From: Cryptosporangium phraense
GTDB lineage: Bacteria > Actinomycetota > Actinomycetes > Mycobacteriales > Cryptosporangiaceae
NCBI RefSeq assembly: GCF_006912135.1
Contig: NZ_VIRS01000013.1
Location: 124,001 to 188,000, forward strand
Direction: 5' to 3'
DNA length: 64,000 nucleotides
The position numbers were made by a program, and so were the translations under genes. Shown here one piece after another: positions 12,577 to 28,623 of the stretch. Positions within the stretch are counted from its first letter, which is position 1. The number at the start of each line of letters is the position of its first letter. A model generated the notes under the pieces. That model was given only the letters and a program-made list of their open reading frames with translations, made no database searches and was not told where the DNA came from.

Positions 12577-13437
12577 TCAGTCGCGTCGGTGGCTGCCCAG
12601 CCTCCACCGTGACCACGCTCGTTCGAGCGGCGACCGCTGACGGTCAGCCTCGCTCGCCGTCAGCGCAGAGTCGAGCCTCATCGTCAGCCGCTCGACGGCG
12701 GAGCGGAGTGAAGCGAGATCGTCGCGCAACTCAGCCCGCTGATCATCGTTCATCTTCTCCAGCGTCGGCCTGTCGACAACGAGGCCCGCCAGGAGAGAGT
12801 TGAAGAGAAGAAAAGTGACAGCCGATCCGATGAAACCGGCACCTAGATTCACGAAAGTATCGGCGAGAAATGTCGATACCGCGCCACCCTCGAGCCTGCT
12901 GTAGAAGTAGCCCAATGCTCCGACGGCGATACCGATGAGCAACACCACTGCCGGAAGCAAAGTCTGAATCCCTCTGCTCCACTCCACCAGTTTGACCGCT
13001 ATGCCCTTCACCCGAAGAGAAAAGGTCGTCAAGGCCACCGCCCCGATACTCAGCACCGAAAACAGCGCCCAGAGCAGTGATTGCTCATCCGTGCTCGAGT
13101 CGGGCTGGATCAGGCTCTCGTGCACGAACGCTTCACCGGTACCGAATCGCACCGCGGTCCACGTGCGCGAACCATCGACCTCTTCGCCGTTGACGGTTGC
13201 GATGACCGCAACTTGCTGGTTGTGTCGCAGAGTCTGGAGTACCTGGCACGTCCTACGCGGGCAGGCGCGCAATTTCGCCTCGTCCCTGACGTAGGCAACC
13301 TGAACTCCTTCGACTTTCGACTTACTCGAAAGTCCGCTGCCCAATGCGTACACGGCCGCCCCGCCAATGAGCATGATGAGCACGAAGGCAGCCAGCCCGA
13401 ACACTACAACGACCATTTTCTGCGTCTTGGTGCTCAT
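12577..13437 (-). CDS. Membrane protein with extracytoplasmic SH3-like domain and cytoplasmic coiled coil
   Basis: Not a named family that I recognise. The 286-residue protein has one N-terminal membrane helix (residues 9-33), then a bacterial SH3-like stretch (about 45-110) with 'YVRDEAKLRACPRRTCQVLQ' and 'GTGEAFVHESLI', similar in layout to SH3_3 domains that bind wall or peptide ligands. Two of its cysteines, in 'RACPRRTCQ', could form a disulfide outside. Three more membrane helices follow (about 120-140, 155-180, 190-220) and a charged C-terminal helix with 'LEKMNDDQRAELRDDLASL' likely to form a coiled coil. Codon third positions are less G/C rich than in flanking genes, hinting at a different history. 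It is transcribed alone, convergent with the acetamidase gene. Confidence 0.7.
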   Translation of the reverse strand: MSTKTQKMVVVVFGLAAFVLIMLIGGAAVYALGSGLSSKSKVEGVQVAYVRDEAKLRACPRRTCQVLQTLRHNQQVAVIATVNGEEVDGSRTWTAVRFGTGEAFVHESLIQPDSSTDEQSLLWALFSVLSIGAVALTTFSLRVKGIAVKLVEWSRGIQTLLPAVVLLIGIAVGALGYFYSRLEGGAVSTFLADTFVNLGAGFIGSAVTFLLFNSLLAGLVVDRPTLEKMNDDQRAELRDDLASLRSAVERLTMRLDSALTASEADRQRSPLERAWSRWRLGSHRRD

Positions 13438-13559: not shown

Positions 13560-14129
13560 ATGCCCCGACAGCTCGACGACCTTGCCTGGCCGATCTCCAC
13601 CGCGAGGCTCACGCTCCGGCGGGCCCGGCCCGACGACGCCGACGAAGTCCTCTCCTACCGCTCACTGCCCAACGTCGTCGAGTGGATGGGTGAACCCCCA
13701 GAAGAGTTCCACGCCCGGTTCGCCGCACCCGAACGGTTCGGCGCGCTGTTACTCATCGAACGCGACGGCGCGGTCATCGGCGAGGTGATGATCAAAGTCG
13801 AGGACGCCTGGGCCCCTCCGCGCCTGACCTCCCACGGGCAGGGCGTCCAGGCCGAGCTCGGCTGGTCGCTACGTCCAGAAGAGACCGGCAAGGGTTACGC
13901 GACGGAAGCCGTCGAGGCCGCGCTCCGGATCTGCTTCGAGGACCTGGGACTGCGCCGGGTGTTCGCGAGCTGCTTCGCCGCCAACACGCCGTCGTATCGG
14001 CTGATGGAACGCGTGGGCATGCGGCGCGAGGCGCACACGGTGCGGGACGGGCTGCACCCGTCCGGCGAATGGATGGACGGCTTCGACTACGCGTTGCTGG
14101 CCGACGAATGGCGCCGTCGCCGCCACTGA
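13560..14129 (+). CDS. GNAT-family N-acetyltransferase (RimJ/RimL type)
   Basis: A 189-residue acetyltransferase of the RimJ/RimL-like GNAT group. The N-terminal 'ISTARLTLRRARPDDADEVL' strand-helix, the central 'ELGWSLRPEETGKGYATEA' (acetyl-CoA pyrophosphate loop RPEETGKGYA) and 'LRRVFASCFAANTPSYRLME' plus 'RVGMRREAHTVRDG' are classic for the family. The substrate may be a ribosomal protein N-terminus, an antibiotic or another amine; nothing in the neighbourhood narrows this. It stands alone between a minus-strand membrane protein and the urea transporter genes. Confidence 0.9.
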   Translation: MPRQLDDLAWPISTARLTLRRARPDDADEVLSYRSLPNVVEWMGEPPEEFHARFAAPERFGALLLIERDGAVIGEVMIKVEDAWAPPRLTSHGQGVQAELGWSLRPEETGKGYATEAVEAALRICFEDLGLRRVFASCFAANTPSYRLMERVGMRREAHTVRDGLHPSGEWMDGFDYALLADEWRRRRH

Positions 14130-14239: not shown

Positions 14240-14255
14240 GCTACAGACCTGGAAC
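14240..14255 (+). promoter_or_regulatory. Possible GlnR box upstream of urtA
   Basis: The 16-bp stretch GCTACAGACCTGGAAC fits the actinobacterial GlnR consensus GTnAC-n6-GnAAC with one mismatch (C for T in the second position). It lies about 140 bp before the urtA start, within the 264-bp intergenic region. GlnR activates nitrogen-uptake genes including urea transporters in actinomycetes, so the location makes sense. One such match in a few hundred bases is weak evidence. Confidence 0.3.
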
Positions 14256-14343
14256 AGCGCAGAAATGTCAGAGCAATGACTCGCGATCAATCTGCTCTCA
14301 CCTGCAGCAGTCAGCTGCACCTGGCCGGCGGCACGGGGCGGGG

Positions 14344-14387
14344 GAGCTCTGAACCCCGGCGTCACGCCCTTTCCGGGAACGGAGCTC
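14344..14387 (+). promoter_or_regulatory. Possible hairpin that covers the urtA ribosome binding site
   Basis: Two copies of GGAGCTCT start at 14343 and 14381. Because GAGCTC is its own reverse complement, positions 14344-14349 can pair with 14382-14387. Inside, CCCGG at 14355-14359 can pair with CCGGG at 14373-14377, giving a two-part stem just before the urtA ATG at 14394. The likely ribosome binding site (GGAG at 14381-14384, nine bases before the ATG) is in the right arm, so the structure would mask it. This could be translational control or chance in G/C-rich DNA. Confidence 0.35.
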
Positions 14388-14393
14388 TCACCT

Positions 14394-15680
14394 ATGTCCA
14401 TCACCAGCAAGCGGCTGCGCGCGCTTGTGGCCGGGATGACCGTGGCCCTCGTGCTCGCCGGCTGCGGCAGCCGAGCCGGCGACGAAACGGCCACCGGCGG
14501 GGCGGCCCCGGCGGCCAGCTGCGTCGACACCTCCGGCGGCACGATCAAGCTCGGCTTCCTCAACTCGCTCACCGGCGGCATGGCGATCTCCGAGAAGACC
14601 GTCTCCAACGTGCTGCACATGGCCGCCGACGAGATCAACGCCAGCGGCGGCATCCTCGACAAGAAGATCCAGTACGTCCAGGAGGACGGGGCCACCGACT
14701 GGCCCACGTTCGCCGAGAAGACCGAGAAGCTGCTCACCCAGGACTGCGTGGGCGCGATCTTCGGCGGCTGGACGTCGTCGTCCCGCAAGGCGGTCAAGCC
14801 GGTCGTCGAGAAGAACAACGGGCTCTTCTTCTACCCGGTGCAGTACGAGGGCCTCGAGTCGTCGAAGAACATCTACTACACCGGCGCGACCACCAACCAG
14901 CAGATCATCCCGGCGATGGACTTCCTCAAGTCCCGCGGGGTGAAGACGCTGTTCCTGGCCGGTAGCGACTACGTCTTCCCGCGCACCGCGAACGCGATCA
15001 TCAAGCTGTACGCGGCCAAGCTCGGCATCAAGATCGTCGGCGAGGAGTACGTCCCCCTCGACAAGGACGACTGGACCAGCCAGGTCGCGAAGATCGTCAA
15101 GGCCAAGCCCGACTTCATCTTCAACACGATCAACGGCTCGTCGAACGTCGGCTTCATCAAGGCCTACTACGACGCCGGCCTGACCGCCGCGAAGACGCCG
15201 ATCATCTCGGTGTCGATCGCCGAGGAAGAGGCGCCGGCGATGGGCCACTCGGTCACCGGGCACTACGCGTCCTGGAACTACTTCGAGTCGCTCAAGACCC
15301 CGACCAACCCGAAGTTCATCAAGGACTGGAAGGCCTACCCGAACAGCAGCGGCGTGACCTCCGACCCGATGGAGGCCGCCTACATCTCGCTGTATCTGTA
15401 CAAGGCTCTCGTCGAAAAAGCCGGCTCGTTCGACGTCGACAAGATCAACGCGGCGGCGAAGTCGAACACGATCACGTTCGACGCGCCGGAGGGCACGGTC
15501 ACGCTCGACGGCGAGAACCACCACATCTCGAAGCCCGGCCACATCGGACAGATCAACGCGGACAACCAGTTCAACATCGTCTGGGCCTCCGACGCGTTCA
15601 TCAAGCCCGACCCGTACCTCAAGGGCTACGACTGGTTCCCGGCCAACGTCCGTGACCAGCTCGTAGACGCCGCCGGCTGA
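14394..15680 (+). CDS. urtA: Urea ABC transporter, substrate-binding lipoprotein
   Basis: A 428-residue lipoprotein: signal peptide with lipobox LAGC (Cys24), then a type 1 periplasmic binding fold of the UrtA/AmiC group. Diagnostic stretches are 'GFLNSLTGGMAISEKTV', 'GGWTSSSRKAVKPVVE', 'FFYPVQYEGLESSKNIYYTG' and 'NSSGVTSDPMEAAY', which are characteristic of the urea (short-chain amide) receptors. It delivers urea to the UrtBCDE complex, whose genes follow. A strong hairpin separates it from urtB, which would allow higher expression of the binding protein. The upstream region has a possible GlnR box, in keeping with nitrogen control. Confidence 0.95.
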   Translation: MSITSKRLRALVAGMTVALVLAGCGSRAGDETATGGAAPAASCVDTSGGTIKLGFLNSLTGGMAISEKTVSNVLHMAADEINASGGILDKKIQYVQEDGATDWPTFAEKTEKLLTQDCVGAIFGGWTSSSRKAVKPVVEKNNGLFFYPVQYEGLESSKNIYYTGATTNQQIIPAMDFLKSRGVKTLFLAGSDYVFPRTANAIIKLYAAKLGIKIVGEEYVPLDKDDWTSQVAKIVKAKPDFIFNTINGSSNVGFIKAYYDAGLTAAKTPIISVSIAEEEAPAMGHSVTGHYASWNYFESLKTPTNPKFIKDWKAYPNSSGVTSDPMEAAYISLYLYKALVEKAGSFDVDKINAAAKSNTITFDAPEGTVTLDGENHHISKPGHIGQINADNQFNIVWASDAFIKPDPYLKGYDWFPANVRDQLVDAAG

Positions 15681-15692
15681 TCACCCCACTGC

Positions 15693-15724
15693 GGGGATGC
15701 CTGCCGCCCGCGGCGGGCATCCCC
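15693..15724 (+). terminator. Intercistronic hairpin between urtA and urtB
   Basis: A 15-bp arm at 15693-15707 (ggggatgcctgccgc) can pair with 15710-15724 (gcggcgggcatcccc) with a single G-T wobble and only two bases between. No T-run follows, so it is not a classical full terminator. It is more likely a partial terminator or a 3' end stabiliser that leaves extra urtA message, a common pattern after the binding-protein gene of an ABC operon. Confidence 0.65.
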
Positions 15725-15744
15725 CTGCACAGAGAGAAGAGCCC

Positions 15745-16629
15745 GTGGACGCTCTGATCACTCCACTGCTGAACGGCAGCGCACAAGGTGCGCTGCTCCT
15801 GCTCGCCGCGCTGGGCCTCTCGCTCACCTTCGGCCAGATGGGCGTGATCAACATGGCCCACGGCGAGTTCCTCATGATCGGCGCCTTCAGCGCCTACCTG
15901 GTCCAGCAGGTCATCACGGCCAGCAACCTGTCGATCCCGGTCGCGCTGCCGGTCGCGTTCGTCGTCGCCGGTCTGTTCGGACTCCTGCTGGAGATCACGA
16001 TCATCCAGTGGATGTACCGCCGGCCGCTCGACACGTTGCTGGTGACCGTCGGGGTCAGCCTGATCCTGCAGCAGGCCGCGCTGCAGATCTTCCCGTCCCA
16101 GGGCGTCCCGGTCGAAAAGCCGGACTGGCTCGACGGGCAGGTCGACGTCCTCGGCTACGAATGGCCGCTGCGGCAGGTGTTCACGATCGTGCTCGCGGCC
16201 GCCTGCGTGGCCGCGCTGGCCGCCTGGCTCAAGTACACGTCGTTCGGCCGGCGCATCCGGGCGACCGTCCAGAACCGGGACCTGGCCGAGACCTCGGGGA
16301 TCTCCACCCGCACCATCGACCGGCTCACGTTCTTCGCCGGGTCCGGTCTGGCCGGGGTCGCGGGCGTGGCCGCGTCGCTCATCGGCGGCACGAACTCGCA
16401 GATGGGCGCCCAGTACATCATCCCGGCCTTCCTCGTCGTCGCGGCCGGCGGCATCGGCCAGCTCAAGGGCACGATCATCGCCGCGTGGGCGGTGGGCGTC
16501 GCCCTCGCGTATTTCGCGTACTGGACGACCGGCAGCTTCGCGCAGGTGCTCGCCTTCATCCTCGTGATCGTGTTCCTGCAGGTCCGCCCGCAGGGACTGT
16601 TCACGGTGCGGACAAGGAGCCTGGTATGA
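15745..16629 (+). CDS. urtB: Urea ABC transporter, permease subunit
   Basis: A 294-residue membrane protein of the branched-chain amino acid/urea permease family (LivH-like). It shows 'LGLSLTFGQMGVINMAHGEF' near the N-terminus, 'IIQWMYRRPLDTLLVTVGVS', and the EAA-like loop 'GRRIRATVQNRDLAETSGIS' for ATPase contact. Eight or so hydrophobic segments are evident. I chose the GTG at 15745, just after a GAGAGAAGAG site, because the earlier ATG lies inside the intercistronic hairpin. The stop overlaps the urtC start (ATGA). With UrtC it forms the transmembrane channel for urea. Confidence 0.95.
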   Translation: MDALITPLLNGSAQGALLLLAALGLSLTFGQMGVINMAHGEFLMIGAFSAYLVQQVITASNLSIPVALPVAFVVAGLFGLLLEITIIQWMYRRPLDTLLVTVGVSLILQQAALQIFPSQGVPVEKPDWLDGQVDVLGYEWPLRQVFTIVLAAACVAALAAWLKYTSFGRRIRATVQNRDLAETSGISTRTIDRLTFFAGSGLAGVAGVAASLIGGTNSQMGAQYIIPAFLVVAAGGIGQLKGTIIAAWAVGVALAYFAYWTTGSFAQVLAFILVIVFLQVRPQGLFTVRTRSLV

Positions 16630-17696
16630 CCAAGCTGAAGCTCAGCGGCATCGTGGTCCTCGCCGTCCTGCTCCTCGGCGTCGCCCCCCTCGTGCTCACC
16701 GACCACTGGCTCACCAACCTCGGCAAGTACTGCTGCTGGGCGATCGCCGCCGTCGGCATCGGCCTGGCCTGGGGCCGGGGCGGGATGCTCGTGATGGGGC
16801 AGGGGGTGTTCTTCGCCCTCGGCGCCTACTCGATGGCCATGCACCTCACGCTGGAGAGCGCCGGTGGCCGGGTGCCCGGCTTCATGGTGCTCTACGACCC
16901 GCTCGCGCCGCTCCCGGCGTTCTGGGAACCGTTCCGCAGCACCTGGTTCACGCTGCTGGCGATCGTGCTGCTGCCGGTGATCGTGGCCGGCCTCCTCGGC
17001 TACGCGCTGTTCAAGCGGGGGGTGAAGGGCGCGTACTTCGCGATCCTGACCCAGGCGCTGGCCGTCGCGCTGGCCACGCTGATCAGCTCCACGATCCGCG
17101 AGACCGGCGGCGACACCGGGCTCAGCGACTTCAAGTACTTCTTCGGCTTCGTGCTGAACGACCCGGCGAACAAGATCATGGTCTACCTCATCGCCGCCGG
17201 GCTGCTCGTCGTCTGCCTGCTCGCGGTCTGGCAGCTGTACCGCAGCCGCTTCGGTGAGCTCCTCGTCGCCACCCGGGACGCCGAGGAGCGCGTCCGCTTC
17301 CTCGGCTATGACCCGGGCACGATCAAACTCGTCGCGTTCGTCATCTCGGCGCTGATGGCGAGCATCGGCGGAGCGATGTTCGTGCCGATCGTCGGCATCA
17401 TCACCCCGGCCGAGATCGGCGCCGCGGCGTCGATCTTCCTGATCGCGGGCGTCGCCCTCGGCGGCCGGGCGTCGCTGTTCGGGCCCGCGCTGGGCGCGAT
17501 CGCGGTCGGCTGGGGACAGTCGAGCCTCGGCTCGACCTGGCCCGACGGCTGGCCCTACGTCCTCGGCCTGCTGTTCATCGTCGTGATCCTGTTCCTGCCG
17601 AAGGGCCTGTCGTCGCTGCCGGCCCGGTTCACCGCGGCCCGTTCCGACGCGCCGCCCGCCACCGTTCCGGCCGAGCTCGAGGAGGTGCGGTCATGA
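16626..17696 (+). CDS. urtC: Urea ABC transporter, permease subunit
   Basis: A 356-residue LivM-like permease. 'GKYCCWAIAAVGIGLAWGRG' and 'GMLVMGQGVFFALGAYSMAM' are strongly typical of UrtC, as are 'IRETGGDTGLSDFKYFFGF' and the cytoplasmic coupling loop 'ATRDAEERVRFLGYDPG'. The C-terminus has a short hydrophilic tail. It starts at the ATG that overlaps the urtB stop and ends overlapping urtD, both by ATGA, so the complex subunits are translationally linked. Confidence 0.95.
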   Translation: MTKLKLSGIVVLAVLLLGVAPLVLTDHWLTNLGKYCCWAIAAVGIGLAWGRGGMLVMGQGVFFALGAYSMAMHLTLESAGGRVPGFMVLYDPLAPLPAFWEPFRSTWFTLLAIVLLPVIVAGLLGYALFKRGVKGAYFAILTQALAVALATLISSTIRETGGDTGLSDFKYFFGFVLNDPANKIMVYLIAAGLLVVCLLAVWQLYRSRFGELLVATRDAEERVRFLGYDPGTIKLVAFVISALMASIGGAMFVPIVGIITPAEIGAAASIFLIAGVALGGRASLFGPALGAIAVGWGQSSLGSTWPDGWPYVLGLLFIVVILFLPKGLSSLPARFTAARSDAPPATVPAELEEVRS

Positions 17697-18466
17697 GCCT
17701 CGTCGTCACCGATCTCCACGTCGAGTTCTCCGGGTTCGTCGCGGTCGGCGGCGTCTCGTTCGACGCCCACCCCGGCGAGGTCCGGTTCCTCATCGGCCCG
17801 AACGGCGCGGGCAAGACGACCTGCATCGATGCCATCACCGGGCTGTCCAAGGGCACCGGGTCGGCGAAGCTCGGCGAGACGGAGCTGCTCGGCAAGCCGG
17901 TGCACAAGATCGTCCGCCTCGGGGTCGGCCGCACGTTCCAGACCGCGAGCGTCTTCGACGAGCTCACCGTGCTGCAGAACCTCGACATCGCCGCCGGACG
18001 CCACCGCTCGCCGGCCGCGCTGCTGCGGGCCCGGCGCGGCGTCGACTCGTCGATCGAGCGGGCGGTGACGGAGACCGGGCTCGACGGCGAGCTGGCCACG
18101 CCGGCCGGCATCCTGTCGCACGGGCAGAAGCAGTGGCTGGAGATCGCGATGCTGCTCGTGCAGGACGCGCAGGTGCTGCTGCTCGACGAGCCCGTCGCCG
18201 GTATGAGCCAGGACGAGCGGACCGCGACCGGAGAGCTGCTGCAGCGCGTCGCGGCGAACCACACCGTGGTCGTGGTCGAGCACGACATGGACTTCATGCG
18301 CCGCTTCGCCACCCGCGTGACCGTCCTGCACCAGGGCAAGGTCCTCTCCGAGGGCACGGTGGCCGAGGTGCAGGCCGATCCACAGGTGCAGGAGGTCTAC
18401 CTGGGCACGGCCGGGGCCGCGACCACGGCCGCCGCGGCGGCCGTGCCCGAACTGATGGAGGACTGA
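17693..18466 (+). CDS. urtD: Urea ABC transporter, ATP-binding subunit UrtD
   Basis: A 257-residue ATPase of the LivG type. Walker A is 'GPNGAGKTT', the signature motif is the family-typical variant 'LSHGQKQWLEIAM', and Walker B is 'VLLLDEPVAGM'. 'VGRTFQTASVFDELTV' carries the Q-loop region. The 'HGQKQWLE' form of the signature is characteristic of UrtD and separates it from amino acid transporters. An Ala-rich C-terminal tail of about 15 residues is not needed for function. It overlaps urtC by four bases and is followed one base later by urtE. Confidence 0.95.
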   Translation: MSLVVTDLHVEFSGFVAVGGVSFDAHPGEVRFLIGPNGAGKTTCIDAITGLSKGTGSAKLGETELLGKPVHKIVRLGVGRTFQTASVFDELTVLQNLDIAAGRHRSPAALLRARRGVDSSIERAVTETGLDGELATPAGILSHGQKQWLEIAMLLVQDAQVLLLDEPVAGMSQDERTATGELLQRVAANHTVVVVEHDMDFMRRFATRVTVLHQGKVLSEGTVAEVQADPQVQEVYLGTAGAATTAAAAAVPELMED

Positions 18467-18467
18467 C

Positions 18468-19151
18468 ATGCTCGAGCTCACCGACGTCGAGGCCGGCTAC
18501 GGGCGCACCCGGGTGCTGCACGGTGTCACGGTGCCGACGGGCCGGGTCGTGGCCGTGCTCGGCCACAACGGCGCCGGCAAGACGACGCTGCTGCGCCTGG
18601 CGATCGGCCTGATCAAACCGTCGAAGGGCCGGGTGCTGTTCGACGGCGAGGACGTCTCGTCGCTCGCCCCCAACCGGCGCATCGCCCGGGGCATGGCCTA
18701 CGTGCCGCAAGGTCAGCAGGCCTTCGGCCAGCTCACGACGCTGGAGAACCTGCAGCTCGTCGCCGACGGCCGCCGGGGCGGCAAGGCCCTGATCGACGCC
18801 CAGCTGGCGCGCTTCCCGGCGCTGGAGAAGTTCGCCACCCGGAAGGCCGGCCTGCTCTCGGGCGGCCAGCGCCAGCAGCTCGCAATTGCCCGGGCCCTGA
18901 TCACCGGCCCGAAGCTGCTCATCCTCGACGAGCCGACCGAGGGCATCCAGCCGACGATCGTCGCCGAGATCGAGCAGACGATCGTCCAGCTCGCCGCAGA
19001 GGGCATCCACGTGCTGCTGGTCGAGCAGCACATCGGCTTCGCCCTCGAGGCGGCCGAGCGGTACGTCGTCCTCGCGTCGGGCCGGGTCACCCAGACCGGC
19101 GACGGCGGCGCGGCCGCCACCGCCACCGTGCGGGCCGCCATGGCGATCTGA
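18468..19151 (+). CDS. urtE: Urea ABC transporter, ATP-binding subunit UrtE
   Basis: A 227-residue LivF-type ATPase. Walker A 'GHNGAGKTT', Q-loop 'AYVPQGQQAFGQLTTLENL', signature 'LSGGQRQQLAIARAL', Walker B 'LLILDEPTEGIQP' and the H-loop 'LLVEQHIGFAL' are all intact. 'PTEGIQPTIVAEIEQTI' is a good UrtE marker. It completes the transporter. No urease structural or accessory gene follows in this window, so urea breakdown must be encoded elsewhere or use another amidolytic route. Confidence 0.95.
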   Translation: MLELTDVEAGYGRTRVLHGVTVPTGRVVAVLGHNGAGKTTLLRLAIGLIKPSKGRVLFDGEDVSSLAPNRRIARGMAYVPQGQQAFGQLTTLENLQLVADGRRGGKALIDAQLARFPALEKFATRKAGLLSGGQRQQLAIARALITGPKLLILDEPTEGIQPTIVAEIEQTIVQLAAEGIHVLLVEQHIGFALEAAERYVVLASGRVTQTGDGGAAATATVRAAMAI

Positions 19152-19208
19152 ACTCGCAATGTGGGCGTAACAGCGGGCAGGGAGGATACCCCGCGAGGGG
19201 GCGCCACT

Positions 19209-20885
19209 GTGTCGACGGACAACGCGCGCGCGGCCGCGGAAGACAGTCTCGAGGACTACGCCTTCCGCTATGTACCGCGCACCTTCCGGCGCTGGAGCGC
19301 GGCCTCCGTCGGCGCCACCGCCCTCGGGTCGATCGCGTTCCTCGCCGACTTCTCGATCGGCGCGAGCATCGGCATCGACCACGGCACCGCCAACGCCGTG
19401 CTCGGCATCCTGTTCGCGTCGGTCATCATCGTCATCGTCGGGGTGCCCGTCGCCTACTACGCGGCCCGCTACAACCTCGACCTCGACCTCATCGCCCGTG
19501 GCTCGGGGTTCGGCTACTACGGCTCGATCATCACGACCATCGTCTTCGCCGGCTTCACCTGCATCTTCTTCGCCCTGGAGGGCGCGATCATGGCGCAGGG
19601 GCTGCAGGTCGCGACCGACCTGCCGCTCTGGCTCGGCTACCTCATCTCGACGGTCGTGGTGATCCCGATCGTCATCTACGGCATGCGCGCGCTGGAACGT
19701 CTGCAGTTCTGGACGACCCCGCTGTGGCTCGCGCTCGCGTTACTGCCGCTGCTGTGGATCCTCGTCTCCGACCCCGAGGCGGTCCGCGCCTTCACCTCGT
19801 ACACCGGCAATTCCGACGGTTCGATCAAGTTCGGTGCCGTCGTCTCGAGTGCGGCCGTGTGTTTCGCGCTCAGCCCCCAGCTGGCCGAGCAGATCGACTA
19901 CCTCCGGGCCATGCCGCCGCGCACGCCGTCCAACGCCCGCTCGTGGTGGACGTCGTTCGCGTTCGCCGGGCCGGGCTGGGTCCTGTTCAGCGGCACCAAG
20001 CAGGTGATCGGGGTGTTCCTCGCGGTCTATTTGCTGGTGAAGGTCGAACCCGATCTCGGGCATCGCGCGGCCGAGCCGGTCAAGCAGTTCGTCGTGATGT
20101 ACCAGACCCTGATCCCCGACTGGCTGGCGATCGTCCTCGCCCTGCTGCTCATCGTGGTGGCGCAGGTGAAGATCAACGTGACGAACGCGTACTCGGGCTC
20201 GCTGGCCTGGTCGAACGTCTTCACCCGGCTGGCCAAGCACTATCCCGGCCGCACGATCTTCGTGCTGTTCAACCTCGTGATCGCCTACGTGCTGATGATG
20301 CTCGACGTCTTCACGCTGATCTCGTTCGTGCTCAGCCTCTACGCGAACGTCGTGATGGCCTGGCTGGTGACGATCGCCGCCGACATCGCGATCAACAAGT
20401 GGGTGCTGCGCATCTCGCCGCGCTTCCCGGAGTTCCGCCGGGGCATGCTGCACGACTGGAACCCGGTCGGGCTCGTGTCGGTGGGACTCGCCTCGGTGCT
20501 GTCGCTGCTCGCGTTCGCCGGGCTGTTCGGCCCGGACGTCAAGCCGTTCTCGGTGCTCATCGCGATCGGCGTCGCGGTCGTCGCCACGCCGGTCATGGCC
20601 CTGGCCACCCGCGGGCGGTACTACCTGCGCCGCCGCTCCGACGGCATCGACTCGCCCCGGTTCGACGCCGACGGCAACCCGTCGGGCGAGCGGCTGCGCT
20701 GCCACGTCACCGGGTACACGTTCGAGCGGCCGGATATGCTGGCCTCGGCCGAGAGGGGGCCGCACGGCGAGGTGCAGTACGTCTCGTCGCTGGCGCTCGC
20801 GCTCGACGATTCCGATCGATACGTGCTCCCGGCGGAGGTCACCGAGCCCCCGCGCTGGGCGGTCGCCCGGAAGGGGGAGAAGTGA
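19209..20885 (+). CDS. NCS1-type (cytosine/purine/hydantoin/allantoin family) permease
   Basis: A 558-residue secondary transporter with about twelve membrane helices. 'RRWSAASVGATALGSIAFLA' and 'IARGSGFGYYGSIITT' fit the start of the NCS1 (purine-cytosine permease) fold, 'INVTNAYSGSLAWSNVFTRL' the conserved helix 8 region. A roughly 90-residue hydrophilic C-terminal tail is long for the family. The GTG at 19209 follows GAGGGG at proper spacing, while an in-frame GTG 48 bp earlier has no ribosome binding site. It lies 57 bp after urtE and overlaps the first TetR gene (GTGA). Substrates in this family are nucleobases, hydantoin, allantoin or related ureides, so it plausibly brings in a nitrogen-rich compound alongside urea. 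Confidence 0.88.
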   Translation: MSTDNARAAAEDSLEDYAFRYVPRTFRRWSAASVGATALGSIAFLADFSIGASIGIDHGTANAVLGILFASVIIVIVGVPVAYYAARYNLDLDLIARGSGFGYYGSIITTIVFAGFTCIFFALEGAIMAQGLQVATDLPLWLGYLISTVVVIPIVIYGMRALERLQFWTTPLWLALALLPLLWILVSDPEAVRAFTSYTGNSDGSIKFGAVVSSAAVCFALSPQLAEQIDYLRAMPPRTPSNARSWWTSFAFAGPGWVLFSGTKQVIGVFLAVYLLVKVEPDLGHRAAEPVKQFVVMYQTLIPDWLAIVLALLLIVVAQVKINVTNAYSGSLAWSNVFTRLAKHYPGRTIFVLFNLVIAYVLMMLDVFTLISFVLSLYANVVMAWLVTIAADIAINKWVLRISPRFPEFRRGMLHDWNPVGLVSVGLASVLSLLAFAGLFGPDVKPFSVLIAIGVAVVATPVMALATRGRYYLRRRSDGIDSPRFDADGNPSGERLRCHVTGYTFERPDMLASAERGPHGEVQYVSSLALALDDSDRYVLPAEVTEPPRWAVARKGEK

Positions 20886-21454
20886 GCGAGGAGCCGGTCG
20901 ACACCGCGACCGCGATCCTGGTGAGCGCCGCGGTGCTGCTGCGCGAGCGGACGTTCGACGACATCTCCTACCGGGCCCTCGCCGACGAGGTCGGCATCTC
21001 CGAGCGCACGATCTACCGCCAGTACCCCACGCGCGCGCATCTGCTCGCCGCGCTCTCCGACTGGATCGAACGGACCTACTTCCCGCTGCCGCCGTTCGTG
21101 ACCGTCTCCGAGTACTGCGCCGCCGTCCACGAGCGCTTCCGCGCTTTCGACGCGTCGCCCGCTTACGCCTACGTCGGTGCCCGGGCGTCCGCGATTTCCC
21201 CGACGCTCGACGGAGCCGGTCCGTCCTACCTCACGAGGGCGATCGAAGCTTTGCTGGACGTCGCGGCGCCGACGCTCAACCGGCGCGATCGGCGGCGGGT
21301 GGCGGCGTCGCTGCGCTACTTCTCGTCAGCGATGTTCTGGGCCCGGTTGAGGACGGGTTTCGACCTGGACGCGGCCGAGATCTGCGACGCCTTCGACCGC
21401 TCGGTGGGGCCGGTACTAGCGCGCCTACCCGAGGCGACGTGGGTGGAGCAGTGA
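20882..21454 (+). CDS. TetR-family regulator (first of a tandem pair)
   Basis: A 190-residue protein with an N-terminal TetR helix-turn-helix: 'DISYRALADEVGISERTIYR' and 'QYPTRAHLLAAL'. The C-terminal helices are typical of a ligand-binding/dimerisation domain but give no ligand. Its GTG start overlaps the permease stop (GTGA), and it ends near or within the start of a second, clearly related TetR gene. Being last in the urea/NCS1 transcription unit, it probably regulates that unit or its own permease. Confidence 0.85.
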   Translation: MSEEPVDTATAILVSAAVLLRERTFDDISYRALADEVGISERTIYRQYPTRAHLLAALSDWIERTYFPLPPFVTVSEYCAAVHERFRAFDASPAYAYVGARASAISPTLDGAGPSYLTRAIEALLDVAAPTLNRRDRRRVAASLRYFSSAMFWARLRTGFDLDAAEICDAFDRSVGPVLARLPEATWVEQ

Positions 21455-22023
21455 CGGCGCCCGCCGGTTCGGAGCTGAGCGGGACGCAGACCGCGATCCT
21501 GGCCGCCTACGCCGAGCTGATCGAGGAGGTCGGCAGCGACGACGTGTCGTTCCGGGTCATCTCGCGCCGAGCCGGCATCGCCCAGCGCACGGTGTTCCGG
21601 AACTACCCGACACGCGTCGACCTGCTCCTGGCCACCGCGGCCTGGATCGAAGCGACGCTCTTCGCCCGCGAGGAGCTGGACTCGATCTTCGACGTCCCCC
21701 TGGCGATCCGCGACGCGATGCAGCGCTACGACGCGAGGCCGGAGCTAGCGCACGTCGTCGCCGAGACGGCGATGCGCGGTGTGAGCGGCGCGGCCCCTGC
21801 GTCCGGCCGGGCACAGCTCGAGCGGCTCCTGGACGCCGAGGTGCCCTCCCTCGACGAGGCCGAGCGTCGGGCGGTCGTCGCGGCCCTGGCGCACCTCGAC
21901 TCGGTCGGGACCTGGGTGACGTACCGCCGGGAGTTCGGCATGGACCAGCGAGACATTGCGGATGCGGCCGCCTGGGCGGCCGAGGCGGTCCTCGACACGA
22001 TCCGCGACCGCGTCGCCTCGTAG
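21451..22023 (+). CDS. TetR-family regulator (second of a tandem pair)
   Basis: A 190-residue TetR protein. Its DNA-binding part, 'VSFRVISRRAGIAQRTVFR' plus 'NYPTRVDLLLATAAWIEATL', lines up residue for residue with the preceding protein, so the two look like a tandem duplication. I chose the GTG at 21451, which overlaps the previous stop; a GTG at 21439 in the same frame is an alternative. Two coupled paralogous TetR proteins can form heterodimers or recognise two ligands. This is the last gene of the unit starting at urtA. Confidence 0.85.
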   Translation: MTAPAGSELSGTQTAILAAYAELIEEVGSDDVSFRVISRRAGIAQRTVFRNYPTRVDLLLATAAWIEATLFAREELDSIFDVPLAIRDAMQRYDARPELAHVVAETAMRGVSGAAPASGRAQLERLLDAEVPSLDEAERRAVVAALAHLDSVGTWVTYRREFGMDQRDIADAAAWAAEAVLDTIRDRVAS

Positions 22024-22348
22024 CTGTTGGTCGCGCTGACGGGTGTCTGCTGTGGTCCGCGGGACGTGGCCCCGCGCGGCGGTCAGCGTCCCGCCGAACG
22101 GCCGCCGGCTCCGTAGCCGGCGTCGATGCCGACCAGCCCGGATTCGGGCGCCCTGTTGTTGCCCTGCGCTCCCGGGAACTCGCCGGGTCCCGCCACGGGT
22201 GCAGCGTCCTACGGGGTTCCGAGTTCGATCGGAGCGACGTCACGGTCGCGCGCCCGCCGAGGGCACACGGCGCCGAGAATCCGCCGCACGACCGACTCGA
22301 CTCGTTCGCGCCTCGGGACGAACCGGTCGCGAACATCGACCGGATTTC
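22024..22348. other. Intergenic stretch between the TetR pair and a small lipoprotein gene
   Basis: No convincing gene, repeat or operator was found in this 325-bp stretch between two convergent genes. Short inverted runs occur ('gtccgcgggacgtggccccgcgcgg' type symmetry near 22054-22080) that might act as a terminator for the TetR unit, but no T-run follows. Base composition begins to change here towards the less G/C-rich region that continues to about 27.3 kb. Confidence 0.4.
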
Positions 22349-22633
22349 TCAGCAGGTGAATCTGATCGCGTCGGGGCTGTCCTGCATTGCCTTCCGCCAA
22401 TCTGACGCCGCCTTCTCGCACTCGGATTTCGTGACCCAGCACGCGCCGCCCGGCCCATCGCTTTTTCCGTCGTATTTCTCGCACTTGTTCGGGCTGAGTG
22501 GAAAGATCGGAGAAATATCGTATTTCCGATCATCCTGCGTTCCGCAGGCAGTCAATGACGCCAGTGCCAACCCGGCCAGTATGGTCGCTGCCACCGAGCG
22601 CACCCCGAAGCAGCATCGGTCTGGTATAGACAT
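22349..22633 (-). CDS. Small cysteine-containing lipoprotein of unknown function
   Basis: Not recognised. From the ATG at 22633, which follows AAAGGA by nine bases, the frame gives 94 residues with a signal peptide ending in a lipobox LTAC (lipidated Cys30). The mature part of about 65 residues contains four further cysteines, in 'NKCEKYDG', 'GACWVT', 'KSECEKA' and the very C-terminal 'RFTC', enough for two disulfides. This suggests a compact disulfide-stabilised domain on the outer face of the membrane. An ATG nine bases upstream is possible but has no spacer to the Shine-Dalgarno sequence. It lies at the edge of a lower-G/C block whose other genes are also unknown. Confidence 0.7.
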   Translation of the reverse strand: MSIPDRCCFGVRSVAATILAGLALASLTACGTQDDRKYDISPIFPLSPNKCEKYDGKSDGPGGACWVTKSECEKAASDWRKAMQDSPDAIRFTC

Positions 22634-23079
22634 CCGGTCCATCCTTTCGATGGTCCCCGCCGCTGGCCAATCGAGGACGGGTCGGCGACAACCGGTATCG
22701 ATGGCCTCGCGCAATCGCTGAATGAAACAGAGAGGCTGGCCTCGCGGCTAGCGGGCGCCCAAATGCCTCTTTGCGCGGTCGCGAAGCTCTCACGAGAATT
22801 GCGCACCAAGGCTCGGGTTTGAGCATTGTGCGATGCCAACCCACACCTGTCAAGCCTGCGGTGACCACTGAAAAGGGGTCGCTGCCCTATGGCAATCGCG
22901 GCAGAGGCTGCGTCGATGGCGAAGTGGCTATTTCTCACCCGTCCGAATGGTTGGTGTCGCCATCCATGCGCACCGTCCTATGTTGTGCGGGTCCATCTGC
23001 GTCCTAAAGAGACGCCAGGGCTGCGCGACGCGGCAGATCCAGCGGCGCGCTTCCGCCACTTCGAAAGGATTCCCGGCCG
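22634..23079. other. Divergent intergenic region with no recognised gene
   Basis: This 446-bp gap lies between the divergent lipoprotein gene and the 149-residue protein gene and must contain both promoters. Short frames occur on both strands but none has a ribosome binding site together with actinomycete-like codon use. The G/C content is clearly lower than in the main gene blocks. No repeat or palindrome stood out. Both flanking genes use an AAAGGA ribosome binding site nine bases before the start. Confidence 0.4.
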
Positions 23080-23529
23080 ATGAGCGCGACCACCCGAGCC
23101 AGCCTCGCCCTGACCGCCAGCACTTCCCTCGCGCCGAATGCGGCGCTCGAGGTCGTCAAGGGCGCGACCGCCCGCGTGAAGGGCGGGGGCTCCGACGTGC
23201 TGTTCAGTGGCATCCAGACGTTGGGAGCCGCCTTTTACGTGGAGCGAGAGGCCGACGGCCGTTTGGAACTCTCTCTCAACAGCGGCAAGCGGATCATCGA
23301 GATCTGTACGTTCCCCGCCACCGTCACCGAGAAGGATGGGACGACGCAGCTGAAGGTCGGCGGTCTCACTCATTACAAGACCAGCCAGCCGACCGCGCTC
23401 GGCTTCATCCCGGTCGGCCCGAAGTCGATCAATGGCTTGGGAATGTACAAGCGGTTTCTTGATGAGGTGAGCGTTGCCCTGAAGAGTGCCGACGGCAACG
23501 CCCGGGTCGCCATCGAGGAATCCGCATGA
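23080..23529 (+). CDS. Hypothetical protein, beta-rich, 149 residues
   Basis: Not recognised. The protein has no signal peptide or membrane helix. After a Ser/Thr/Ala-rich N-terminus of about 22 residues it alternates short hydrophobic strands and turns ('GSDVLFSGIQTLGAAFYVER', 'RIIEICTFPATVTEKDG', 'TQLKVGGLTHYK'), so a beta-sheet domain is likely, ending in a helix 'GMYKRFLDEVSVALKSADG'. The ATG follows GAAAGGA by nine bases. Its stop overlaps the start of a 39-residue membrane peptide (ATGA), so the two are co-translated. It is 260 bp upstream of the large Clp_N/TM/TIR-like gene on the same strand and may belong to the same unit. Confidence 0.7.
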   Translation: MSATTRASLALTASTSLAPNAALEVVKGATARVKGGGSDVLFSGIQTLGAAFYVEREADGRLELSLNSGKRIIEICTFPATVTEKDGTTQLKVGGLTHYKTSQPTALGFIPVGPKSINGLGMYKRFLDEVSVALKSADGNARVAIEESA

Positions 23530-23645
23530 TGACTGTCCTGGTCTGGATCGTGCTGCTGGGTTTGTTGTTCGGGGGCCCAGCCAGCGTGCTGCTCAGCCGC
23601 AAGTACCCCCGCAAGCTGCCGAGGGAAGACGGCGAGAAAAGTTAG
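23526..23645 (+). CDS. Small single-span membrane peptide, 39 residues
   Basis: A short frame that starts in an ATGA overlap with the preceding stop. Residues 3-25 form one hydrophobic helix ('TVLVWIVLLGLLFGGPASVL'), followed by a strongly basic tail 'SRKYPRKLPREDGEKS', so it should insert with the C-terminus in the cytoplasm. The coupling to an upstream gene and the clean membrane-peptide pattern make it a likely real gene. It might anchor or modulate the 149-residue protein, or act as a toxin-like or regulatory small membrane protein. No family is recognised. Confidence 0.65.
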   Translation: MMTVLVWIVLLGLLFGGPASVLLSRKYPRKLPREDGEKS

Positions 23646-23790
23646 CGCGCGCACAACAGGAGCCGTTAGGTCGGACTGAGAGCCGGTCCAGGATCCGATT
23701 GTCGAACTCCCTGGAAGCCCGTGGCGGCACACTGACCTCATTGTGGCACTGTGCTGATTACGCACCTCATAGCCGGTTGGTGGAGCCTTG

Positions 23791-26700
23791 ATGGAAATCG
23801 CGCCGGTACTCGGCGAGGCTGCTGTAGGCGCACTCCGTCTGGCCGCAGGCCGGAGGTCAGAAGATCACCTAAGCACTGGTGCAGTATTCGCCGCATTGCC
23901 GGAAGTTGAGCCGTATCGGAACTGGCAAAGATTGTGGCTGGAGACCGGCGAGCCGGACAGCCTTCACCTCGGCTGTGCACCGGACGGCGTCTCGCCCGCC
24001 ACGGCAACGTTCGAAGGTGTTCCGCTCTCCGCGGACCTGTCGTATGCGCTGACGTTGGCGGACGATCTCCGGCAAACCTATGGCTTTTCCGAGGTCTCCG
24101 TCGGACTGCTGGCTGTCGCGATCGCGGCCGATCCGAATTCCGGGGCGGCGCGGCGACTCAGTGCTCACGGCGTCACCTCGGACGCGCTGCTTCAGTTGGT
24201 CCAGCGTGAGATCCTGGGCGACAGCTTGGTGGGTTTGAACGAGTTTCTCGATCGGCGGCGGTTCTCCATTGTCCGAGCGGATACCTCCACACCGCTGCCA
24301 CCACAAGAACCGCGCGTCCCTGTCCCACGCGCATCGCTACCGTCACCGATTCGGCAGTCTGCTGCTCGGCCACGACTGCGTCGGATCGCCTGGACTGCGC
24401 TCAGCTTCCTGGCCGTTGCCGGCATCGTCCTGGCGATCAACACCTCGCCGAGCTTCAGACCCATGACGGGCCTGAAGTACCCGCCGGACCCGCCTCCAGT
24501 CGCGGCACACATGGTGACCACGTCCGATGTGCGATCGGCTATGGGCGCCGAAGCCGTCGCGCTCCAGGACCGACTGCCCGATCTCAACTTATGGACAAGT
24601 CACAGCCCGCTGGTCGTCGACTACCGGAATGCTGCCGTCAAGGCGGGCTGGCAGCGGGAGTGGGCGAGTGCTGATCAGACGCGCCGAGTCCTCATCCGCA
24701 TCGTGGAAGTCAGCGAATCCGCCGAACTCCAGCACCTTCGTCGTTACTGCGCGCCGACGAGGACAACGACCGAGCCCGCAGGTTCGCCGTTCGTGCGCTC
24801 CGGATTCACTGCCAACTCCGGCGCTCAGGCTCTTTTCTGCGTGCTCTTCGAGAAGGGCAACCTTAGCGTCCTCACTATCGTGAGGGTGGACGAGGGCAGT
24901 GTGGATTCCCTGACGCCGGCCCTCGCTAACCGACTCGCATGGCGTCAGATGTCCCTTCTGGCCGGCTACACCTCCCCACCGCCGGTCGATCGTGAGACCC
25001 ATTACGCCCGGGACAACATCAATCGTTGGCTTATTCGGTCTACCATCCTCACGCCGTTGATCGTCTGGCTGCTGATAACGCTGGTCGACCGAGCGACGTG
25101 GCGACGTCTGCGTCACAGGTTGTTGCCCCAGAAGAGGCGTGACCCGTTCGTCATCGCCGTCGATCCGGTGTCACGGCTGGCGCTATCAGAAGCCAGGGCA
25201 TTCGCCGTCCTGAAGGTACTCGCATGCGTCTGGGTGCTCCGGCTCTCCGAAACGTTTCTGTTCGGATTTGGATCGACCGGGCTGCTCGTGCTGCTCATGT
25301 TCTGCATAGTGTCTACAGCCGAGTCGCGGCTGCTGCGCCGTCGTCGGGGGCGCTTCGCGGCGCGCCCATTCAAAGGATCCAGCCGGGTGCTCGCGGCAAT
25401 TGGTCTACTTGTGACCGCGGCACTGGTGTTCACCGCGTATCTGATAGCGCTAGGCGGCATCTCCATGGCCGCTCTGGGCTTCAACCCGGTCGGCGCCGAC
25501 TACGTCACCGGGCGCCTCGGCTGGATCGGTATCTTGTTCGCGCTGGTGCCCCTCGCCATCGCCATTCTCCCGCTGATGCTCGTGCGGCGCGTTGCGATGG
25601 GCCGGTTGCGACACGAAGCGCAGAGCGTGCCGGGCAAGCACATTACTATTGTTGCGCTCGTTCGCCGACGACAAGCGACGCCTGCGAGCCCGTCGTTTGG
25701 ATCGGGCGTCCGTCGTCGATCGGCTGTGCCTACGCCGCTTCGAGCGCTTCGAGGAGGTCCTTGCCGCCGCGCTCTCCACGATCGGCCCGGTCATAGCGCT
25801 CGGCCAGCCCGGAGAACGACTTCCTCCGGCTCTCGGCGCCGTCCGCCAGGAGTACCCGATGGACGCCTGGGAGGCAGGCGTGGGAAAGCTGATCCAAGAC
25901 TCGGCGTTCGTCTGCATGGTCGTGGGGCGTTCACAGTCGCTGGTGACCGAGCTGCGGGCGGTCAAGCAACTCGGCGCGTTGAATCGTGCGTTCTTTCTGC
26001 TGCCACCATGTGGGCGTGCCGATCAGCGAAACCGTCTTGCCGTGCTCTCGGCCGAACTCGGTATCCCATGGGGGCGGCTCCTTCAGGCGACGAAGACCGG
26101 AGACGTGCTGCTGGTAGCGTTGAACTCCGATCCGGACCGAGCAGTGATCTTCACGTCGGCGGGCCCGGACGATGTCAGCTATGAGGCGGCCGTACACGCG
26201 GCTGTGCTGCTGCTTGGATTGCCCGAAGCTGATGCTAGTGCTCCGGTGCGGCAGCTCGTGAACGGCTTCTGGCGCCGCACTTCCGAGGTCCGGTCCGAGT
26301 CCGCGGCCCTCTCTGCGCCGCCGCCGCGGGTAGCGATTTATGCGCCCGGCCAGGCGCCGGTTTACAAGCCGCTCTATCGGCGACACGCCAAGGCGCTGGG
26401 CGTAACGGTCATCACAAGTTCATGGGTGCTCTCCCTGATGTCATATCAAATTATCACGGGGGTGAGCTCCCGATACGACCCTGAGATCCCTACCGGAGAT
26501 TGGGTAGCGACTACGCTCACTCAGGATGACATTTCCGGTAAACTCTACGGCGTCTTCGACTCGCGCAAAATCGCCACAATAGACCCGAATAAGGCAGAAG
26601 TCCGCTCTGTGATTGAAACAGGCGACCCCACCGATGAAATGATTGTGCACGGAAAGACCGCTTTCGCTGTCTCACGGCTCGCCGGAACGGTTACTGCCTT

Positions 26701-27301
26701 TAGTCTGGTCACGCGGCAGGCGCTGTGGAAAGCGCACCTACCGCACGGTGTGCGTGGTCTGGCGCTTCATGGCGGTCGTATAGTTACTGTCCTCCCAGCT
26801 CAGCATTTGGTCATCTCGATTTCCGTGCGCGACGGCCGCCAAACCGTGAAACGGACGGTCAACGGAACGCCGTGGGGCATAGCCTTCATTCGTGGCCAGT
26901 TCGTGGTTCCGCTCGTCGATCGAGCCCAGCTCGCCTATCTGGCCGCCGACGACCTGACGATTACCAGGACGGTGAAAACGGTACCGGGCCCGCAACAGGT
27001 TTACGCCCAGGGACCTCTGCTTTGGGTCCTCGCCCCCACGGCCGACCTCGTCGTCAGCCGGCGCGCGGACGGCACCGGCCCCAGTAGGGGGTACCAGTTT
27101 GGGCTCGTGGATCCGGCGGCCTCGATGTCCTCGAGCGGCAGCTGGGTCGCGATCGAGGGCGATGAGCGAGTGAGCCTGATCTCGCCGGACGAGCGCCTCT
27201 TTCGAGTTCCTCTGCCGTATTCCGCTATCTACTCTCTGTGTGTGACTCGCGCGGGGGAAGTCTTCGTTGGAACCAAGGGATCGGTGGCCCAGCTGCGCTA
27301 A
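23791..27301 (+). pseudogene. Frameshifted Clp_N-like / multi-TM / TIR-like / beta-propeller-like protein
   Basis: Two overlapping frames together read as one protein of about 1170 residues. From the ATG at 23791 (after GGTGGAG) the first frame gives two Clp_N-like helical repeats (residues 1-155; 'VSVGLLAVAIAADPNSGAA' is typical), a membrane helix near 24375-24450, an outside domain with three Cys, and a cluster of about five membrane helices (25030-25600). From about 25645 the sense passes to the next frame (+1): 'LLLLRSFADD' and 'SAFVCMVVGRSQSLVTEL' resemble a TIR-like signalling domain (25650-26230), followed by a hydrophobic helix (26400-26460) and about 270 residues of beta-propeller-like repeats. 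Neither frame has a stop at the switch; frame 1 simply becomes nonsense. A single indel, sequencing error, or +1 programmed frameshift could explain it. The domain set is unusual and suggests sensing and signalling across the membrane. Confidence 0.6.
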
Positions 27302-27637: not shown

Positions 27638-28483
27638 TCAGGGCTTACGGGCGACCGCGCCGTACACGGAGACCAACTCGTCGGAGCGGTCGGCGAAGCG
27701 GTCCTGGTCGTCGGGGTGCCAGCGGTGCACCAGCGTCACGCCGGGATCGACCAGCTCCAGCCCGTCGAAGAAGCTCTCGATCACCGGCTTCGGCCGCACC
27801 TGCATCGTGACGCCCCGGGCCGCGTAGATCTCCTCGACCTTCTTCCACTGTTCGGGCAGGAAGTCGCCGGTGAGATGCGACAGCGCAAGGTAGGAGCCGG
27901 ACGGCAGCGCGTCCAGCAACTGGCCGACGATCCGGTGCGGCTCGTCCGCGTCGCCGATGAAGTGCAGGATCGCGACGAGCAGCAGCGCGACCGGCTGGTC
28001 GAAGTCGAGGGTGCGCTTCGCGGCCTCGATGATCCGTTCCGGGTCGCGGAGGTCGGCGTCGAGGTAGTCGGTGACGCCTGACGGGTTGCTCGCCAGCAGC
28101 GCCCGCGCGTGGGCGAGCACGATCGGGTCGTGGTCGGTGTACACGACGCGCGCGCCCGGGTCGATGCCTTGCGCGACCTCGTGCACGTTCGGCGCCGTGG
28201 GCAACCCGGTGCCGATGTCGAGGAACTGGCGGATGCCCTGTTCCGCGGTCAGATAGGTGACGGCCCGACGTAACCAGTCGCGGTTGGCGCCGGGGGCGAC
28301 GTCGCTGGCCGGGTTGGAACTGCGGCCGTGCTCGGCCGCCGTGCGGTCGGCCGGGAAATTGTCCTTGCCGCCGAGCAGGTAGTCGTAGACCCGAGCCGGA
28401 TGTGGGACGTCGGTGCGCAGGTCGACCGGCGCGCGGTCGGTGGCCCGGGAAGCAGCTTCGGTCATCCACTCAGCGTCAGTCAC
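27638..28483 (-). CDS. SAM-dependent methyltransferase, Methyltransf_19 (DUF574) family
   Basis: A 281-residue protein of a methyltransferase family that is very common in actinomycetes. The N-terminal 'HPARVYDYLLGGKDNFPADR' is its hallmark; the SAM loop is 'FLDIGTGLPTAPNVHEVAQ', followed by 'VVYTDHDPIVLAHARALL' and 'VALLLVAILHFIGD'. The GTG at 28483 is preceded by AAGGA at seven bases and fits the family's start better than the TTG 27 bp upstream or the ATG 18 bp downstream. Its targets are unknown for most members. It lies alone, convergent with the frameshifted gene and 140 bp upstream of the MFS transporter's end. Confidence 0.9.
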   Translation of the reverse strand: MTDAEWMTEAASRATDRAPVDLRTDVPHPARVYDYLLGGKDNFPADRTAAEHGRSSNPASDVAPGANRDWLRRAVTYLTAEQGIRQFLDIGTGLPTAPNVHEVAQGIDPGARVVYTDHDPIVLAHARALLASNPSGVTDYLDADLRDPERIIEAAKRTLDFDQPVALLLVAILHFIGDADEPHRIVGQLLDALPSGSYLALSHLTGDFLPEQWKKVEEIYAARGVTMQVRPKPVIESFFDGLELVDPGVTLVHRWHPDDQDRFADRSDELVSVYGAVARKP

Positions 28484-28623
28484 GTCGATCCTTACTCGTC
28501 CCGGTGACAACGACGCCGATACTAGTGCGCTCGGTCTGATGAGGACACCGGTGGAGAGCGAGTTCGTCTCCCGCGACGGTCCGGCGCCGCGGTAGCGGCA
28601 CCGGACCGGCTGTGGTTCCCGGC

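Follow-up and report, generated by a model that had tools for sequence, protein, structure and literature searches.

The question raised by positions 23,080–27,301 of a 64,000-nucleotide stretch of Cryptosporangium phraense contig NZ_VIRS01000013.1 (hereafter the window) is whether three plus-strand genes, encoding a 149-residue protein, a 39-residue membrane peptide and a large multidomain protein, make up a single signalling or defence system, as a sequence-only reading of the DNA had proposed, and what the large protein does. Our answer centres on the large protein, which is a member of a multi-transmembrane (multi-TM) TIR-type family of which no description was found in the literature searched. 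Whether it is a membrane-anchored TIR-type conflict or immune receptor with a Clp_N adaptor, probably acquired and frame-changed in this genome, we regard as evenly balanced.

All the genes previously described were found where they had been placed, on the plus strand: an open reading frame (ORF) of 149 codons (23,080–23,529), an ORF of 39 codons (23,526–23,645) overlapping it by ATGA and, after 142 bases, a large gene lying in two long overlapping ORFs, 23,788–26,184 in frame 1 and 25,592–27,301 in frame 2. Continuous single-protein counterparts of both window pieces occur in a Pseudonocardia metagenome-assembled genome (locus L011, 990-codon frame) and in genome G032 (1049-codon frame), these single-frame relatives of the large protein being without Clp_N. 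The frame-1 piece aligned with the N-terminal half of the L011 protein (25% identity) and the frame-2 piece with the rest of it (27% over 471 columns, aligned from 25,646), and the L003 protein aligned to frame 2 from 25,643 onward. Because the homology lies in frame 1 on the upstream side and in frame 2 on the downstream side, the switch was placed at approximately 25,600–25,646, in agreement with the ORF table. The large gene (23,791–27,301, plus strand) is one gene, interrupted by a single frame change in this genome; its two pieces were analysed separately throughout and never joined.

The switch falls between the membrane-spanning and the TIR-like portions, which would suit a decayed pseudogene of an acquired receptor in this strain. 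Inspection of the switch stretch by eye revealed neither a long run of one base nor an evident slippery motif, a result that argues against programmed frameshifting; no evidence for such a shift was obtained and it was judged less likely than mutation or error. Decay would also suit a conserved motif of the window copy, which has threonine in place of tryptophan and one extra residue. Against decay, the 619-codon frame-1 piece and the 552-codon frame-2 piece are both free of internal stops, so that any decay would be recent, and the draft assembly, in 87 contigs, leaves mutation and sequencing error indistinguishable at the switch. The gene in this strain is possibly dead or mis-sequenced, and we treat the decayed pseudogene as a substantial, though lesser, possibility.

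The domain that gives the protein its proposed function is encoded at 25,643–26,290 (plus strand). No TIR family was reported in the window pieces by Pfam, PADLOC or NCBIfam, the domain falling below the curated PF08937 cut-off, nor by Pfam in 13 relatives, and PADLOC gave no match for the two window pieces or for seven other family members. Alignment of 13 members listed R, G, GxPG, GAxR, W and E as invariant, with the glutamate present in 13/13 and kept in the window copy, where its codon lies at 25,949. A family profile of 21 sequences (20 segments from 26 candidate loci, with none from L017, L021, L025, L028, L038 or L041, plus L104) was compared with a profile of nine ThsB-type TIR domains (from 8 of 24 loci, plus the gene of genome G678), giving a match with a probability of 85%, a P-value of 6.1e-6 and a score of 38.7, in which the W and E of the family fall on the W and E of the ThsB consensus. 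None of 100 column shuffles reached this score (maximum 17.7), and control profiles of methyltransferases (six sequences) and ABC-ATPases (two sequences) scored 13.0–17.8. The match held without L104 (P 2.4e-5), with a stricter seven-sequence ThsB set (P 1e-5), with the six receptor-type members alone (P 3.1e-5) and with the 14 other family members alone (P 2.4e-5). When 258 ORFs were searched with the family profile using hmmsearch, the ThsB gene of G678 was matched (E 1.7e-5), and in a plain hidden Markov model search the inclusion threshold was passed by four of the nine ThsB sequences and by no TIR_2 or shuffled sequence. Structure models placed the glutamate within a predicted helix (102–112) after strand 92–96, the third core strand, in the window protein, and in a helix after strand 81–85 in the L014 protein, whose compact-domain model (mean predicted local distance difference test, pLDDT, 74; predicted template modelling score 0.76) has a predicted strand-helix alternation. 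Judged by these profiles the domain is TIR-like of ThsB type, with its fold unproven; its conserved glutamate suggests that it probably cleaves NAD-type nucleotides or produces a nucleotide signal.

Compared with the family profile, a nucleoside deoxyribosyltransferase profile (built on two sequences after a third had been dropped) gave no match. A search of a viral structure library with the L014 model gave nothing at E 1e-3; deoxyribosyltransferases appeared there, amid unrelated proteins, at E 0.018 and 0.069. Designed TIM barrels occupied 9 of the 14 rows of a PDB sequence search with the 13-sequence profile (best E 8.8e-6) and were judged chance matches because designed proteins have no ancestry; the same search returned Anti-bacteriophage protein B at E 0.018.

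Upstream of the TIR-like domain lies a membrane region (24,379–25,620, plus strand, frame 1), in which hydropathy indicates a first transmembrane helix, a domain of about 190 residues predicted to be outside, and then some five more helices, and which aligns with the N-terminal half of L011. The frame-1 piece has five hydrophobic stretches ahead of the TIR-like part, at residues of about 197–223, 414–434, 466–516, 530–565 and 573–605, the third being long enough for two helices, and Pfam gave no match for 24,490–25,050. Basic loops of membrane proteins are cytoplasmic under the positive-inside rule, and since the loops RRLRHRLLPQKRR, RRRRGR and RRVAMGRLR of this piece fit such a topology, both the N-terminus and the TIR-like domain are predicted to be cytoplasmic. 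A candidate helix between the TIR-like domain and the C-terminal domain (26,408–26,464, plus strand) reached a hydropathy of 1.31, under the 1.6 threshold, compared with 1.86 in L011 and 1.38 in L003.

The C-terminal domain itself (26,540–27,298, plus strand) is, by fold match of its model, a beta-propeller of YVTN/PQQ type. PQQ_2 was found by Pfam under its cut-off in the window protein (E 0.001) and at 4.4e-8 in the homologue L003. The model of the frame-2 piece had a mean pLDDT of 49.9, with values of 63–79 over residues 321–450, and a Foldseek search of the PDB with it gave 943 matches at E 1e-3 or better, matching YVTN and BamB-like propellers (top 1l0q, E 3.7e-10). We place the propeller probably outside the cell, an assignment kept at that strength because the preceding helix is weak in the window copy and in L003.

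At the other end of the protein is a Clp_N-like double module (23,791–24,300, plus strand), predicted to be cytoplasmic. Its Pfam score for Clp_N (PF02861) was 19.1 bits, against a cut-off of 20.7, and a six-frame search of the own genome gave 24.3 bits at the same place, the weakest of nine matches. Two-sequence comparison showed the window module to be homologous to the C-terminal module of the G032 paralogue L002 (26% over 139 residues, E 1e-12), and another paralogue, L005, has a clear C-terminal Clp_N by Pfam (33.8 bits, 3.9e-8). A combined window/L002 profile matched a small Clp_N profile weakly (score 23.6, probability 6%; maximum of 100 shuffles 16.7), and the single window and L002 module sequences gave no match to it. 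The gene immediately upstream of L005, which has the same orientation, encodes a protein with two Clp_N and a TPR region (7.2e-35), so that in G032 Clp_N occurs both in cis and in an adjacent gene. The presence of Clp_N at either end of these proteins and in a neighbouring gene suggests that the module is an adaptor. The Clp_N-TPR gene and the TM-TIR-like gene ending in Clp_N that it immediately precedes at L007:11989-15128 of G032 are a candidate homotypic adaptor pair.

The make-up of Clp_N, transmembrane, TIR-like and propeller parts suggested from sequence was in this way upheld for the propeller, the membrane stretches and, by profile comparison, the TIR-like part, with Clp_N borderline in Pfam and the L014 model of the TIR-like part having no match in the PDB by Foldseek at E 1e-3 or better. 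No description of this architecture was found in the literature searched, which is not proof of its absence; in PMC11237479, so far as its available text goes, Tir refers to CesT/Tir chaperones, another meaning of the name.

What, then, of the two small genes? Apart from the own genome, one relative of the 149-residue protein (P0001) was found in 249 genomes of the order, in G567, where the 51% identical protein is followed by a relative of the 39-residue, single-helix membrane peptide (50% over 30 residues) with the same kind of ATGA overlap. There were no further relatives of P0001 in 296 genomes of the phylum apart from the own, nor in plasmids, and nothing in the PDB under E 0.33. The shared strand, the similar composition and the gap of just 142 bases between the second and third ORFs might speak for three genes forming one system. 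Against this, the 19.9 kb around the small pair of G567 hold nothing that matches the frame-2 half of the large protein and nothing that matches the frame-1 half better than E 0.18, and no relative of the small proteins was found next to large-protein homologues in the loci checked, including the G678 locus. The sequence-only reading's grouping of the three genes is accordingly given up as very improbable; the two small genes form a separate conserved pair, which we judge to be outside the receptor. The G567 copy of the small pair lies at L103:10467-11002, and a DUF4190 gene and short lipoprotein-like ORFs share its stretch.

The block had also been described as a compositionally distinct island, with more A/T-ending codons than the rest. 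Third-position GC was 0.71–0.85 in the three genes and 0.92–0.97 in eight neighbours, which were hand-picked from 29 ORFs for a clear frame; the contrast is not exclusive to the block, two ORFs outside it being low as well (12,577–13,437, 0.73; 13,560–14,129, 0.86). From 14,240 to 22,022 the window is collinear with two other genomes of the genus at about 87–90% identity, and this collinearity stops at 22,022–22,024, the end of a TetR gene. A DNA search of the genus (four genomes, own included; 40 of 606–670 candidates scored per genome) found only short pieces in the other three between 22,023 and about 27,632. At the protein level, with almost every candidate scored, neither the large protein (P0004) nor the 149-residue protein was found to have a relative in these three congeners. 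The large gene and its block were probably acquired horizontally by this high-GC bacterium. Between the TetR gene and the 149-residue gene lies a small ORF with a lipoprotein-like start, LASLTAC, and without a Pfam family (22,352–22,642, minus strand), and beyond the block is a Methyltransf_19 gene (27,638–28,510, minus strand, Pfam 2.3e-107), whose family is represented many times over, at the DNA level, across the genus.

In the order, at least 16 of 397 genomes were matched by the TIR-plus-propeller part of L011; 10 of them have the match in the TIR-like part and six solely in the propeller. Three candidates were scored per genome, so that the counts are lower bounds. Samples of the phylum gave at least 2 of 296 and at least 2 of 396 genomes, own included (again lower bounds, with up to 10 and 8 candidates per genome scored respectively); the second match in the 296-genome sample overlaps a 742-codon frame resembling, by reading, an aminoacyl-tRNA synthetase and was judged false. 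Within the family of G678 two of 41 genomes matched its receptor, G678 included. A narrow peptide pattern run over 84,980 species genomes produced 146 pattern matches, four of them relatives, including a Spartobacteria contig and an Aliiroseovarius contig. Genome G032 carries four copies, part of the domain is held by four plasmid records, and no relatives were found in three scans of viral contigs or in phage records.

The surroundings of some relatives are of a conflict type. In G678 one strand carries in succession a ThsB_TIR gene (1.5e-8), a caspase C14 gene (6.7e-20), a small gene and then the gene for the receptor-like protein; a TIR_2 gene (8.4e-27) lies close by on the opposite strand. 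This four-gene row (L104:9571-13315) may be a variant TIR-caspase system that includes a membrane partner. A DUF4062-AAA/NACHT-TPR gene and a TrwB-like coupling protein stand beside the G032 paralogue L002, AbiEii lies near L005, and the same 16 kb as L011 hold a TrwC relaxase and a type IV secretion system coupling protein. With conjugation genes near both L002 and L011, some relatives are carried by conjugative elements. An NB-ARC-TPR gene is 1.5 kb away in G788, a TIR_2-WD40 gene at L137:4926-7667 (G594) diverges from a member of the TM-TIR-like family, and at L134 a TIR_2 match fell just under the cut-off. With a local TIR profile, which includes the L104 gene itself (Pfam confirms the L104 TIR), 3 of 19 family loci (L104, L134 and L137) proved to have a separate TIR gene; this is a raw count from an incomplete scan, since L011, L012 and L136 gave no family ORF following filtering.

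Several results weigh against a TIR-type immune receptor. The remaining 16 of the 19 loci had no separate TIR gene by the local profile. Similarity of the family profile to TIR_2 (28 of 30 loci, L074 and L089 having been dropped as shortened by contig ends) was weak, with a probability of 10%, P 0.0031 and one of 200 column shuffles as high (reversed control, P 0.24). When the L014 domain model was run through Foldseek, nothing in the PDB matched at E 1e-3 or better, the best 50 of 1627 matches included no TIR, and Rossmann-like enzymes came first, so that the TIR label rests on sequence. In the window copy the gene is frame-shifted, threonine stands where 12 of 13 members have tryptophan before the glutamate, one residue is inserted in the conserved motif, and the helix that precedes the propeller is weak. 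Those window neighbours that were scanned are ordinary, namely a branched-chain amino acid ATP-binding cassette (ABC) transporter, TetR, the lipoprotein-like ORF, Methyltransf_19, a major facilitator superfamily transporter and a peptide-type ABC transporter, the sole sign of a defence family among them being a weak match of the methyltransferase in PADLOC (E 8e-4). The own genome has 12 TIR_2 and five ThsB_TIR matches, all of them away from the window's contig (C13). The proposal of a conflict or defence module thus finds its counterpart around some relatives and not among the window's own neighbours.

The weak TIR_2 similarity, the lack of a fold match, the loci without a separate TIR gene and the ordinary window neighbours, together with the labelling of the sole annotated plasmid member just as 'transferase', would all suit a TIR-like scaffold devoid of enzyme activity, serving envelope sensing or membrane signalling unrelated to defence. 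We think this rather unlikely, given the invariant glutamate at the TIR position and the conflict-type neighbours of some relatives.

Returning to the immune receptor, its working can be sketched as follows. The TIR-like domain on the cytoplasmic side would cleave NAD-type nucleotides or produce a nucleotide signal, as its conserved glutamate suggests; a small domain is predicted to be outside, and the propeller, probably outside too, may sense a ligand, an invader or envelope damage; and the Clp_N module may recruit Clp_N-bearing partners, as the gene order of the G032 pair hints. In its fullest form, the propeller and sensor domain of a one-chain, outside-in immune receptor would read a surface cue, the multi-TM core would relay it to an inward TIR enzyme of an unlisted family, and Clp_N would recruit effectors, the whole being borne by mobile elements and duplicated in actinomycetes; taken as a whole, this picture is unlikely.

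The closest known relatives of the domain are the ThsB-type TIRs of Thoeris (PF08937), with which it shares profile similarity over a Trp-helix-strand-Glu core and a glutamate at the same place, and one relative of the large protein, that of G678, is lined up with ThsB and caspase genes, a pair that resembles type IV Thoeris as described in the available text of PMC12847820. The window domain differs in sitting within a multi-TM protein with further domains and Clp_N, and in not being reported by the Pfam model. Thoeris combines ThsB and an effector gene in one operon, whereas the window's contig has no ThsB_TIR (all five of the own genome lie elsewhere) and none occurs among the scanned window ORFs. 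The DUF4062 (Swarozyc) proteins, presented as TIR-like NADases in the portion of PMC13174449 available, are comparable in being a TIR-like family recognised by distant similarity, with a conserved glutamate and modular partners, and a DUF4062 gene adjoins the G032 paralogue L002; they are another family, and the words transmembrane and Clp are absent from the main text of that paper. ClpN repeats and beta-propellers are alternative N-terminal modules of the FtsH/vWA-MoxR ternary conflict systems, according to the accessible text of PMC7159879. The window differs from these in having no vWA or MoxR among the nearest ORFs scanned with Pfam.

Eukaryotic Toll-like receptors offer a likeness in working only, with an outside sensor, a membrane anchor and an inside TIR; the window protein has no known leucine-rich repeat, is multi-TM and carries its propeller C-terminal to the TIR-like domain, and no homology is claimed outside the TIR. 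Most described bacterial TIR proteins respond to events inside the cell. If the receptor interpretation is true, a branch unlisted in the libraries scanned (Pfam, NCBIfam and PADLOC) would be added to the TIRs, and a TIR family embedded in the membrane, with domains on the outside, would enable bacteria to trigger TIR signalling in response to events at the cell surface, in the manner of the Toll receptors of animals.

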